Positions 23,895 to 28,056 of a stretch of DNA of 64,000 nt are shown here, in pieces (within the stretch, counting starts at the first letter, position 1; every line of letters starts with the position of its first letter). The DNA comes from Paraburkholderia aromaticivorans (GTDB lineage: Bacteria; Pseudomonadota; Gammaproteobacteria; Burkholderiales; Burkholderiaceae), in the NCBI RefSeq assembly GCF_002278075.1, contig NZ_CP022989.1, forward strand, positions 1,674,001 to 1,738,000, in the 5' to 3' direction. The notes under the pieces are model-generated. The model saw nothing but the letters and a program-made list of their open reading frames with translations, was not told where the DNA came from and ran no database searches. The position numbers and the translations under genes are program-made.

Positions 23895-24487
23895 GCGTCG
23901 AGTTCACCGTCGATACCGACGGTTGGGTCGCCGCCGCACGCAAACTGCCATCGCCGAATTTCGAAGCGCGGCCCGCAGGGGCCGAGCCGACGCTGATCGT
24001 CGTCCACAACATCAGCCTGCCGCCCAACGAGTTCGGCGGCACCGCGATCGCCGAACTGTTCCTCAACACGCTCGACTGCGACGCTCACCCGTACTACGAC
24101 TCGCACCTGCGTGGCGTGCGCGTGTCCGCGCATTTCGTGATTCATCGCGACGGGGCGCTCGAGCAATTCGTGTCGTGCAACGAGCGCGCGTGGCACGCCG
24201 GGCCGTCGAATTTTTTCGGCCGCGAGCGTTGCAATGATTTCTCGATCGGCATCGAACTGGAGGGCAGCGACACCACGCCTTTCGAAGCGGCGCAATACCG
24301 CACGCTCGGCGCTCTCGTGAGCGCGCTCAAGGCGCGCTATCCGGTTACGGCGCTCGCCGGTCACTCGGACATCGCCCCCGGTCGCAAGACCGATCCAGGG
24401 CCGCATTTCGAGTGGCAGCGCCTGCGGCGCGACACCTCGCTCGCCGCTCGGTATTTCCCCTATCTCAAGTTTTCCAAAACCCCGTAA
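23891..24487 (+). CDS. ampD: 1,6-anhydro-N-acetylmuramyl-L-alanine amidase AmpD
   Basis: A cytoplasmic amidase that strips the peptide from anhydro-muropeptides in peptidoglycan recycling; its loss derepresses AmpC beta-lactamases in species that carry ampR-ampC. The 198-aa protein has all three zinc ligands of the family: His39 (VVHNISLPP), His158 (GHSDIAPGRKTDPG) and Asp168. ELEG near 122-125 supplies the conserved catalytic-site glutamate. The start at 23891 overlaps the upstream gene stop. It is intact, so recycling should be normal. Confidence 0.97.
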   Translation: MSVEFTVDTDGWVAAARKLPSPNFEARPAGAEPTLIVVHNISLPPNEFGGTAIAELFLNTLDCDAHPYYDSHLRGVRVSAHFVIHRDGALEQFVSCNERAWHAGPSNFFGRERCNDFSIGIELEGSDTTPFEAAQYRTLGALVSALKARYPVTALAGHSDIAPGRKTDPGPHFEWQRLRRDTSLAARYFPYLKFSKTP

Positions 24488-24627
24488 CGGCCCCCTCGCG
24501 ACCCTTCTCGCGACTTCGCGCGATGCGCGGAGAACAAGGCGCGGCCTTGTTCTCCGGGGAGTCGGCTAGGCGCCGTGTTCGCGTTGCGCTAGCCAAAAGT
24601 CAAGACTTCGAAAGCAAATAAATCGAT

Positions 24628-24655
24628 TTGACCTGTCTCGAAAGTCCACTATACT
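24628..24655 (+). promoter_or_regulatory. Putative nrdA promoter
   Basis: -35 TTGACC (24628-24633) and -10 TATACT (24650-24655), 16 bp apart. The -10 lies inside the first NrdR-like box, as expected for a repressed nrd promoter. The implied leader before nrdA is nearly 400 nt. Confidence 0.6.
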
Positions 24656-24692
24656 TGGTGCCACAAATTCAGTTTTCCACTATATCTTGTGT
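24646..24692 (+). promoter_or_regulatory. Pair of NrdR boxes
   Basis: Box 2 at 24677-24692 matches the published NrdR consensus (ACACWATATATWGTGT) at 14 of 16 positions by eye. Box 1 at 24646-24661 matches at 11 of 16. Their starts are 31 bp apart, close to three helical turns, the usual NrdR tandem spacing. NrdR is the ATP/dATP-sensing repressor of ribonucleotide reductase genes. Its own gene is not in the window. Confidence 0.8.
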
Positions 24693-24697
24693 TGTGC

Positions 24698-24742
24698 TGT
24701 GCATAACCATGTGAATAACTGAGTGCATAACCGAGTGTATAA
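24698..24742 (+). promoter_or_regulatory. Array of four DnaA-box-like 12-bp repeats
   Basis: Four direct repeats with an exact 12-bp period begin at 24698, 24710, 24722 and 24734. Read on the minus strand, the first two are perfect DnaA boxes (TTATGCACA and TTATTCACA; consensus TTATNCACA), and the last two (TTATGCACT and TTATACACT) each differ at one position. They lie directly after the NrdR boxes and upstream of nrdA. DnaA control of nrdAB is known in E. coli; its occurrence here is inference. Confidence 0.7.
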
Positions 24743-24938
24743 GTCAGCGGCGCCCCGCTCCCGAGCATGGCGCCGCAAGCATTCCGGGCAGCGAAAAAAT
24801 TCCTGTGGCGCAGCCGGAGAGACCACCGGCGGCATCCAGAAAAACATTCAGGAAAAGGGCTCAGCCAGTGATCGCGACACACACGACGAAGACCGTTACG
24901 AATTCGAATCAGGCTTCATCGTTGTCGCATCCCGCCAC

Positions 24939-24958
24939 CCGGCTTAGCCGGCCTTTTT
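24939..24958 (+). terminator. Terminator-like stem in the nrdA leader
   Basis: A short stem CCGGC/GCCGG with a 3-nt loop is followed by CTTTTT, about 90 bp before the nrdA start. It is weak (5 bp), but its place inside the leader suggests possible attenuation. Confidence 0.35.
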
Positions 24959-25050
24959 CCTGCACCCCATCGCTTGCGCACGCGGCGGCGCAGCGTTCGT
25001 TTTAATCCGCGGATCTTCCCGCAACATTTCCAGGACCAGGAGCTTTGCAC

Positions 25051-28000
25051 ATGCAAACCACCGACAACGTGACGACCCGGTACGAGGGCTCACCGACTGG
25101 CCAGGCCTTCGGCCAGGCACAAGGCGCACAAGCGCTCGCGCCGCAAGCGACCTTCGCCGACTACAAGGTGATCCGTCGTAATGGCAGCGTCGTGTCGTTC
25201 GAACCGTCGAAAATCGCCATCGCCGTGACGAAGGCATTTCTGGCCGTGAACGGTGGTCAAGGCGCCGCCTCCGCGCGTGTGCGCGAACTGGTCGAGCAGC
25301 TCACGCAGAACGTGGTGCGCGCACTCGTGCGCAGCCGCCCGAACGGCGGCACGTTCCATATCGAAGACATTCAGGATCAGGTCGAGCTCGCGCTGATGCG
25401 CGGCGGCGAGCACAACGTCGCGCGTGCGTACGTGCTGTATCGCGAGAAGCGCAGCCAGGCGCGCGGTCATGACGAGCAGGTTGCCGCCAGCTCGCCGGGC
25501 CTGAACGTCACCGACAACGGCGTGACGCGTCCGTTGGATCTGGCCGCGCTGCGCGGCATCATCGAACTGGCTTGCTCGAATCTGGGCGACGCGGTGAGCG
25601 CCGATCCGATCATCGCGGAAACGGTCAAGAATCTGTACGACGGCGTGCCGATGAGCCAGGTCTACGACTCGGCGATCCTGGCTGCCCGCACGATGATCGA
25701 AAAGGACCCGGCGTACAGCCAGGTCACCGCCCGCATCCTGCTGCACACGATCCGCCGCGAGATCCTCGAAGAGGAAGTCACGCAGACGGAAATGGGCGAG
25801 CGCTACGCCGAGTATTTCCCGCAGTTCATCAAGCGCGGCGTGCAAGCCGAGCTGCTCGACGACAAGCTGCTGCAGTTCGACCTGAAGCGTCTCGGCGCCG
25901 CGCTCGACAACAACCGCGACCTGCAGTTCGGCTACCTCGGTCTGCAAACGCTGTACGACCGTTACTTCCTGCATCACGACGGCGTGCGCATCGAAATGCC
26001 GCAGGCATTCTTTATGCGTGTCGCGATGGGTCTGTCGCTGAACGAGATCGACCGTGAAGCGCGCGCGATCGAGTTTTACAACGTGCTGTCGAGCTTCGAC
26101 TTCATGTCGTCCACGCCCACTTTGTTCAACTCGGGCACCCGCCGCTCGCAACTGTCGTCGTGCTACCTGACGACGGTCGACGACGACCTCGACGGCATCT
26201 ACGAAGCGCTGAAGGAAAACGCGCTGCTCTCGAAGTTCGCCGGCGGCCTGGGCAACGACTGGACGCGCGTGCGTGCGCTCGGTTCGCACATCAAGGGCAC
26301 CAATGGCAAGTCGCAAGGCGTCGTGCCGTTCCTGAAGGTCGTCAACGACACAGCGGTCGCCGTGAACCAGGGCGGCAAGCGCAAGGGCGCGGTGTGCGCG
26401 TACCTGGAAACGTGGCACCTGGACATCGAGGAATTCCTCGAGCTGCGCAAGAACACCGGCGACGACCGCCGCCGTACGCACGACATGAACACGGCGAACT
26501 GGATTCCCGACCTGTTCATGAAGCGCGTGATGGAAGGCGGCGACTGGACGCTGTTCTCGCCGTCCACCTGCCCGGACCTGCACGACAAGTTCGGCGCTGA
26601 GTTCGAAACGGCTTACACGGCTTACGAAGACAAGGTCGCGCGCGGCGAGATCAAGCTGTTCAAGAAGATCCCGGCGGCGCAACTGTGGCGCAAGATGCTG
26701 GGCATGCTGTTCGAAACCGGCCACCCGTGGATCACGTTCAAGGATCCGTGCAATGTGCGCTCGCCGCAACAGCACGTCGGCGTCGTCCACTCGTCGAACC
26801 TGTGCACGGAAATCACGCTGAACACGAGCGACGCTGAAATCGCCGTCTGCAACCTGGGCTCGGTGAACCTCGTCGCGCACCTGAAGGAACAGGCCGACGG
26901 CACGCTCGTGCTCGACCACGACAAGTTGAAGCGCACCGTCAGCGTGGCGATGCGCATGCTCGACAACGTGATCGACATCAACTACTACGCGGTCGCCAAG
27001 GCACGTAACTCGAACCTCAAGCACCGTCCGGTCGGCATGGGCATCATGGGCTTCCAGGACTGCCTGCACCTGCTGCGCACGCCGTACGCGTCGGAAGAAG
27101 CGGTCAAGTTCGCCGATACGTCGATGGAAGCGGTCTGCTACTACGCCTACTACGCGTCGACGGAGCTGGCGCAGGAGCGCGGCCGTTACTCCAGCTACCG
27201 CGGCTCGCTGTGGGATCGCGGCATCCTCCCGCAAGACTCGGTGAAGCTGCTCGCCGAAGCGCGCGGCGGGTACGTGGAAGTCGATTCGAGCGAGTCGATG
27301 GACTGGACCGAACTGCGTTCGCGCATCGCCCAGTACGGCATGCGCAATTCGAACTGCGTCGCGATCGCGCCGACGGCGACGATCTCGAACATCATCGGCG
27401 TGTCGGCCTGTATCGAACCGACCTTCCAGAACCTCTATGTGAAGTCGAATCTGTCGGGCGAATTCACGGTGGTCAACGACTACCTGGTGCGCGACCTGAA
27501 GGCGCGCGGCCTGTGGGACGAAGTGATGGTCGCCGATCTGAAGTACTTCGACGGCACGCTCTCGCGCATCGACCGCATCCCGGCCGACCTGCGCGCGATC
27601 TACGCCACCGCGTTCGAAGTCGATCCGAAGTGGCTGGTCGAAGCGGCCTCGCGTCGTCAGAAGTGGATCGACCAGGCGCAGTCGCTGAACATTTACATGG
27701 GCGGCGCGTCGGGTAAGAAGCTCGACGAGATCTACAAGCTCGCCTGGGTGCGCGGTTTGAAGACCACGTACTACCTCCGCACGATGGCGGCGACCCACGT
27801 CGAGAAGTCGACCGTGGCGCACGGCGCGCTGAACGCGGTGAGCTCGGGTGGCGGCGAAGGTTCGGGCGGTGCCGCGGGTGGCGCAGCGGGTGGTTTCGGT
27901 GCGAACAACGGCGCGGCTGGTGGTGCCGCGGGTGGCTTTCAGGCTGCAGCGGCCGCGCCAGCAGTCGCGGTTGAAGCAGCGCCGGAAGCGGATGGTCCGG

Positions 28001-28056
28001 TGTGCATGATGCGTCCGGGCGACCCTGGCTTCGACGAATGCGAGGCCTGCCAGTAA
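25051..28056 (+). CDS. nrdA: Class Ia ribonucleoside-diphosphate reductase, alpha subunit
   Basis: Reduces ribonucleoside diphosphates to deoxy forms for DNA synthesis; forms the alpha2beta2 complex with NrdB. The 1001-aa protein has an N-terminal ATP-cone (about residues 32-130, IRRNGSVVSFEPSKIAIAV), the activity site where dATP inhibits. The 10-stranded barrel follows, with active-site segments STPTLFNSGT, SSCYL, NLCTEI and CNLGSVNL. The C-terminal tail ends in CEAC, the swing-arm cysteines reduced by thioredoxin. A Gly/Ala-rich stretch of about 60 residues precedes this tail. The start is the ATG at 25051, with AGGAG 8 bp upstream. Confidence 0.97.
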   Translation: MQTTDNVTTRYEGSPTGQAFGQAQGAQALAPQATFADYKVIRRNGSVVSFEPSKIAIAVTKAFLAVNGGQGAASARVRELVEQLTQNVVRALVRSRPNGGTFHIEDIQDQVELALMRGGEHNVARAYVLYREKRSQARGHDEQVAASSPGLNVTDNGVTRPLDLAALRGIIELACSNLGDAVSADPIIAETVKNLYDGVPMSQVYDSAILAARTMIEKDPAYSQVTARILLHTIRREILEEEVTQTEMGERYAEYFPQFIKRGVQAELLDDKLLQFDLKRLGAALDNNRDLQFGYLGLQTLYDRYFLHHDGVRIEMPQAFFMRVAMGLSLNEIDREARAIEFYNVLSSFDFMSSTPTLFNSGTRRSQLSSCYLTTVDDDLDGIYEALKENALLSKFAGGLGNDWTRVRALGSHIKGTNGKSQGVVPFLKVVNDTAVAVNQGGKRKGAVCAYLETWHLDIEEFLELRKNTGDDRRRTHDMNTANWIPDLFMKRVMEGGDWTLFSPSTCPDLHDKFGAEFETAYTAYEDKVARGEIKLFKKIPAAQLWRKMLGMLFETGHPWITFKDPCNVRSPQQHVGVVHSSNLCTEITLNTSDAEIAVCNLGSVNLVAHLKEQADGTLVLDHDKLKRTVSVAMRMLDNVIDINYYAVAKARNSNLKHRPVGMGIMGFQDCLHLLRTPYASEEAVKFADTSMEAVCYYAYYASTELAQERGRYSSYRGSLWDRGILPQDSVKLLAEARGGYVEVDSSESMDWTELRSRIAQYGMRNSNCVAIAPTATISNIIGVSACIEPTFQNLYVKSNLSGEFTVVNDYLVRDLKARGLWDEVMVADLKYFDGTLSRIDRIPADLRAIYATAFEVDPKWLVEAASRRQKWIDQAQSLNIYMGGASGKKLDEIYKLAWVRGLKTTYYLRTMAATHVEKSTVAHGALNAVSSGGGEGSGGAAGGAAGGFGANNGAAGGAAGGFQAAAAAPAVAVEAAPEADGPVCMMRPGDPGFDECEACQ

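Follow-up and report, generated by a model that had tools for sequence, protein, structure and literature searches.

A clade-restricted tandem array of DnaA-type boxes beside the predicted NrdR operator of Paraburkholderia nrdA

Double DnaA boxes and the Paraburkholderia nrdA leader

The double DnaA box of Escherichia coli nrdAB has reportedly been described by Tuggle and Fuchs, Augustin et al. and Olliver et al. Arrays of low-affinity DnaA sites in oriC are likewise said to have been described by Rozgaja et al. in 2011. DnaA control of ribonucleotide reductase is detailed in E. coli and only proposed in Bacillus and Caulobacter (PMC8203912). ChIP-seq places E. coli DnaA mostly on paired boxes with 2 or 3 bp between them, and changed spacing disrupts binding (PMC11317965). 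At E. coli loci that include purH, polA and DARS, double boxes are head-to-tail 9-mers separated by 2-3 bp, often a weaker box followed by TTATCCACA, and the DnaA-bound pair at nrdA reads gTTATCCACAaagTTATGCACTt (PMC11317965). The boxes bound by NrdR in E. coli are given as 16-bp elements 15 bp apart (PMC12176259).

The window, by which we mean the whole 64,000-nucleotide stretch of the Paraburkholderia aromaticivorans genome (8.9 Mb, 8 contigs) that was analysed, carries four same-facing DnaA-box-like 9-mers with an exact 12-bp period at 24698-24742 (Table 1). The plus strand reads TGTGCATAA-CCA-TGTGAATAA-CTG-AGTGCATAA-CCG-AGTGTATAA, with CCA, CTG and CCG as spacers, and none of the four boxes matches the E. 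coli consensus TTATCCACA. The description in the initial annotation, four repeats in one orientation at a fixed 12-bp period, two perfect and two with one mismatch, can be read directly in the sequence. Its placement of the array upstream of nrdA holds for the gene, to which the array lies 5', but not for the promoter: the predicted promoter and both predicted NrdR boxes come before the array.

The closest described counterpart is the E. coli nrdAB double box, with which the array shares the gene, the 3-bp spacer and the single orientation of its boxes. The weak partner 9-mer of the E. coli pair, TTATGCACT, is box 3 of the array (PMC11317965), and a pair of NrdR boxes lies nearby with equal spacing, the 17 bp between 14-mers here corresponding to the 15 bp between 16-mers reported for E. 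coli (PMC12176259). In E. coli, by contrast, a single double box precedes the promoter and the NrdR boxes and lies on the coding strand; gTTATCCACAaagTTATGCACTt was located in MG1655, where by eye it precedes the NrdR boxes on the coding strand. The Paraburkholderia array comprises four tandem boxes (two to seven in relatives) that are on the opposite strand and follow both the NrdR boxes and the predicted start. On its minus strand the array shows the weak-then-strong order of the purH, polA and DARS boxes, but those are pairs whereas the Paraburkholderia arrays reach seven units. With same-facing sites that range from strong to weak and would suit ordered filling, the array also resembles the low-affinity oriC arrays, although it sits at a gene leader and not at an origin. 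Unlike known NrdR operator pairs, the one here has an adjacent DnaA-type array added at a fixed distance.

Table 1. Coordinates of the nrdA gene, its predicted control elements and the DnaA-type boxes in the window
Feature	Position	Strand	Description
Predicted sigma-70 promoter of nrdA	24628-24655	+	TTGACC-16-TATACT; start site inferred near 24662
Predicted NrdR box 1	24647-24660	.	14-mer CACTATACTTGGTG, overlaps the -10; in 128/130 genus leaders
Predicted NrdR box 2	24678-24691	.	14-mer CACTATATCTTGTG; 17 bp after box 1 in 128/128 leaders with both
DnaA-type box 1	24698-24706	-	TTATGCACA (+ strand TGTGCATAA), perfect against TTATNCACA
DnaA-type box 2	24710-24718	-	TTATTCACA (+ strand TGTGAATAA), perfect against TTATNCACA
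DnaA-type box 3	24722-24730	-	TTATGCACT (+ strand AGTGCATAA), one mismatch at last base; 9-mer recurs as the second of the two E. coli nrdA boxes
DnaA-type box 4	24734-24742	-	TTATACACT (+ strand AGTGTATAA), one mismatch at last base
GC-rich inverted repeat	24747-24776	+	GCGGCGCC...GGCGCCGC; bounds the array downstream; within the probable 5' UTR; without a T-run
nrdA	25051-28053	+	Class I ribonucleotide reductase large subunit; Pfam Ribonuc_red_lgC, Ribonuc_red_lgN, ATP-cone

Chance expectation and leader layout

The 12-bp periodicity of the four boxes is far beyond chance. Among chains of boxes with at most one mismatch at periods of 9-25 bp, the array is the longest in the window. When the local 550 bp were shuffled 2000 times with dinucleotides preserved, no shuffle reached three boxes and one reached two; none of 20 whole-window shuffles gave a chain of more than one box. 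A genome-wide search for three GTGNATAA cores at 12 bp found nothing elsewhere with up to two mismatches and one match with three, the backwards control pattern also giving one match. For two cores at 12 bp there were three perfect matches, all within the array, and three one-mismatch matches elsewhere, which do not stand above background because the control pattern matched twice. Within the 8.9 Mb of the genome, perfect core pairs separated by 3 bp thus occur only inside the array, where there are three. As in promoters with a double DnaA box, at least two head-to-tail 9-mers near TTATNCACA are present, their spacer (3 bp) falls in the range of 2 or 3 bp, and box position 5 is free while the rest is conserved, as judged in genomes that were selected by perfect boxes.

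The promoter listed in Table 1 is the only promoter-like site in 24480-25080, where shuffled sequences average 0.2. Its TATACT belongs to the NrdR box 1 motif, itself found in 128/130 genus leaders, and its -35 varies between clades among the leaders listed. NrdR is the known repressor of nrdA. The two predicted NrdR boxes, offset by 31 bp and lying over the promoter, together with a single-copy NrdR gene in the genome, are what is expected of an NrdR-regulated ribonucleotide reductase operon. The adjacency of the array to NrdR boxes, noted from the window alone, is borne out by the recurrence of the pair in 128 of the 130 leaders and by the presence of the NrdR gene. Flanked by NrdR box 2 and the GC-rich inverted repeat, the array starts 6 bp past the former. 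With the start placed near 24662, it spans about +36 to +80 and probably lies in the nrdA 5' UTR. Elsewhere in the genome, a second, partial NrdA-like match (G000:C4:176546-178828) shares 65% identity over residues 37-794.

A short motif from the left arm of the inverted repeat is present in 125/130 genus leaders, with or without the array. It lies 7-9 bp past NrdR box 2 in 48 of the 59 array-less leaders and 39-91 bp past it in 64 of the 71 leaders with the array; the simple motif used matched at 2 bp in six array leaders and gave no value in five leaders. With this outward shift, the array resembles a module that was inserted at a single site.

Between the inverted repeat and nrdA lies a 45-codon open frame (24868-25005, plus strand) with a GTG start, preceded by a G-rich stretch resembling a ribosome site and ending in a TAA stop 45 bp before nrdA. 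A GTG or ATG start and a similarly placed in-frame stop, delimiting 41-52 codons, occur in 118/130 genus leaders. A conserved frame as a further role of the leader was considered but not taken up: substitutions number 7227, 7509 and 6949 by codon position, with no excess at the third. The frame is possibly a leader peptide. Inside it, at 24939-24961, is a terminator-like hairpin, CCGGCTTAGCCGG followed by CCTTTTTCCT, a possible attenuator whose T-run is shorter in some relatives (for example, L006 and L023). Searching 24400-25200 against Rfam at E values up to 5 gave no match.

Distribution, phasing and degeneracy of the array

The array is rigidly phased, conserved and rare, and it is degenerate in the manner of DnaA boxes. 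NrdA is encoded in 143 of 144 Paraburkholderia genomes, and leaders were covered for 130 of the 143; the 13 left out had the lowest-scoring best matches, two of them being fragments, and five of these 13 genomes gave no match in the near-array family scan described below. At least two perfect GTGNATAA cores at 12 bp are present in 71/130 leaders and at least three in 64. Array length ranges from two to seven units, with seven only in G073, in whose leader (L100) five of the boxes share GTGCATAACTG, an arrangement that looks like recent expansion by whole 12-bp units.

In a tree of leaders from which the array had been removed, all 71 carriers fall in one clade of 75 (SH-aLRT 100), a clade that presupposes a root among the array-less genomes. 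This was a quick tree of 128 of the 130 leaders (G028 and G091 lack a recognisable NrdR box 1); it was built on 733 columns, and support is weak for 29 of its 125 inner branches. The tree needs five changes, of which the well-supported branches alone force three, and the preferred reading of the array's history is a single gain with four losses (G101, G076, G051 and G127). Both G076 and G051 retain sequence resembling decayed repeats.

Among 80 named nrdA loci, scored by two perfect core boxes 11 or 12 bp apart within the 700 bp before the match (less than 700 bp for L032 and L038), the array is found in seven, all Paraburkholderia (L002-L006, L017 and L023). In the same set it was not found in the sampled Burkholderia, Caballeronia, Pandoraea, Ralstonia, Cupriavidus or further relatives, and it is also absent from P. 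lycopersici (L011) and from a record labelled 'Burkholderia sp.' (L007) that is the genus member G101. The comparison across Burkholderia proposed in the initial annotation thus found the array in one Paraburkholderia clade only, and a general Burkholderia feature it is not. Absence from close relatives that keep the nrdA promoter, named in that annotation as a refuting outcome, is seen in the array-less clades and in 4/75 members of the array clade; with 59/130 leaders lacking it in all, nrdA control can do without the array.

Phasing was measured on 159 gaps between successive perfect boxes in the 71 genomes: 138 are 12 bp and 14 are 24 bp, together 152/159, while the remaining seven are 10 bp (four times) and 22, 23 and 33 bp (once each). 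The first box begins 4-6 bp past NrdR box 2 in every one of the 71 genomes, and copy number differs on the far side. Over 238 boxes with at most one core mismatch, position 5, the N of TTATNCACA, is C in 125, A in 65, T in 39 and G in 9; at the seven fixed positions of the core there are 20 mismatches, and all but one of these are T-to-C changes at unit position 7. Within the first two boxes, position 5 varies with 1.4 bits and the fixed core positions with none. Choosing genomes by perfect boxes inflates this core invariance, against which it can be set that 71 of the 75 clade members pass. The consensus T opens the first box in 70/71 genomes, but in 68/71 the last box has A, G or C there, so that stronger sites adjoin the NrdR box and weaker ones lie away from it.

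These patterns bear on whether the array might be a neutral tandem repeat, driven by slippage and without function. Copy number does change mostly in whole 12-bp units, one genome has seven units of which five share GTGCATAACTG, and there are four apparent losses. Slippage alone could change copy number but would not easily yield a free N within a fixed core or a fixed anchor; within the clade the spacers and the N vary while the core is fixed and the distance from the first box to NrdR box 2 is kept, and the array persists in 71/75 members. A neutral origin of this kind is, on these grounds, very improbable.

Candidate binder and regulatory role

DnaA, the binder first predicted from the boxes alone, gains from comparison: the free N, the 3-bp spacing, the 12/24-bp register and the match to the E. 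coli nrdA double box all point to it, and DnaA very probably binds the array. The genome has a clear DnaA gene; a weaker DnaA-like match, a 255-amino-acid frame near C1:571023-571664, could be Hda. Its own dnaA region (7.5 kb) holds one TTATCCACA and one one-mismatch box, too few consensus boxes for calibrating box preference on the organism's own oriC.

The genes yidC and dnaN normally flank oriC. Perfect triple arrays occur in 5/368 other genomes of the class, of which four lie near yidC (two) or dnaN (two) and the fifth, L260, by cinA; in one dnaN case (L259) the array falls within an open frame that separates dnaN from a gyrB-like gene. Outside the genus, such arrays were found in 1/397 genomes of the order draw (G1305; 399 searched) and in 0/396 of the phylum draw (398 searched), the class, order and phylum draws overlapping one another. 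The near-array family scan matched 36/398 genomes, including 23/60 in the genus, 21 of them at nrdA, against a backwards control that matched once in each of three genomes. It also matched G455, G178 and G158, as well as a near array between frames in G058 (L133). Two further near arrays were rejected as coding repeats, one inside a frame resembling RNase III by eye (L121) and one inside a coding frame with repeated VDK-like codons (L140); nine more near-identical matches of genus g10 are assumed to be the same as these. On the second contig of the P. aromaticivorans genome, a separate DnaA-box-like cluster, GTTATCCACAGATTCACTGAATAACCTTGTGGATAAG (L255, ~1460-1525; G000 C2:1979643), is perhaps an origin or switch site.

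The repeats might instead be iterons of another DNA-binding protein, as the initial annotation had allowed, or an RNA-level repeat in the leader transcript. Tandem repeats of two to seven units do resemble iterons, and the array lies in the probable 5' UTR. Yet it is precisely at the N of TTATNCACA that the boxes are free to vary, the perfect triple arrays of other genera in the class adjoin oriC-type genes in four of five cases, and the Rfam search over 24400-25200 was blank. Nor is there a rep gene beside the repeats, as a plasmid-type iteron origin would have, among eight neighbouring frames with four Pfam matches (SRP54, cytochrome c assembly, Amidase_2 and RNR). Another factor is thus disfavoured and the iteron or RNA account improbable.

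With DnaA as the predicted binder, the array could still serve initiation and not nrdA, as a datA- or DARS-like titration or nucleotide-switch site with nrdA a mere neighbour. That the array holds the genome's only perfect core pairs with a 3-bp spacer would suit such a site, but rigid phasing to NrdR box 2 in 71/71 genomes is unexpected for a mere neighbour, and we consider this quite improbable. It is likely that the array regulates nrdA.

The account we favour, somewhat ahead of even in our judgement, is that a lineage-specific, expandable tandem DnaA array beside the NrdR operator in the nrdA leader allows ATP-DnaA to repress the gene. DnaA would bind side by side at the spacing preferred in E. 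coli, anchored at boxes 1-2 and extending over the weak boxes, and ATP-DnaA would probably be the best-filling form. Given its place 6 bp from NrdR box 2 and closely following the probable start, the array when filled would most likely lower nrdA transcription, by blocking promoter escape or elongation and possibly by helping NrdR. DnaA bound in transcribed DNA can be a roadblock (PMC11317965). After initiation, conversion of ATP-DnaA to ADP-DnaA would empty the array and release nrdA as dNTP demand rises, while NrdR would contribute dATP feedback.

The sign of regulation, taken by itself, is an evenly balanced call in favour of repression. A site downstream of the transcription start rarely suits activation. 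DnaA might nonetheless bind the array and activate nrdA, or act in both directions according to its level, which we hold to be unlikely. The precedent is E. coli nrdAB, where high ATP-DnaA represses and low DnaA or ADP-DnaA activates (PMC8203912), and the strong boxes 1-2 could by inference take either nucleotide form. In E. coli, however, the double box precedes the NrdR boxes by eye, a position suited to polymerase contact, whereas the Paraburkholderia array lies past the predicted start.

Returning to repression by ATP-DnaA, the constancy of the 4-6 bp between NrdR box 2 and the first box makes direct contact or exclusion between NrdR and DnaA possible. More tentatively, NrdR and a DnaA filament of tunable length 4-6 bp away may form one composite operator, interacting directly, cooperatively or by exclusion, in which species tune the threshold by whole 12-bp units. 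Were this so, a single leader would integrate the dATP level and the replication-initiation state.

Paired DnaA boxes are already established, as is the control of nrdA by DnaA. Three features appear to be new: the array is expandable and specific to one lineage, it sits downstream and on the opposite strand, and it keeps a fixed position next to NrdR box 2. An open-licence literature search returned no title reporting such an array; a 2005 paper on NrdR by Rodionov and Gelfand may mention DnaA boxes. The genus offers a natural comparison, with 71 leaders that have the array and 59 that lack it among 130, and near relatives with 0, 3, 4 and 7 boxes behind the same promoter. If confirmed, the reading would extend to another lineage the recognition of close box pairs by DnaA described in E. 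coli, with the same weak box in an opposite placement and on the opposite strand. Taken with its distribution, the array suggests that DNA-precursor supply may be tied to the start of DNA replication in one branch of Paraburkholderia.
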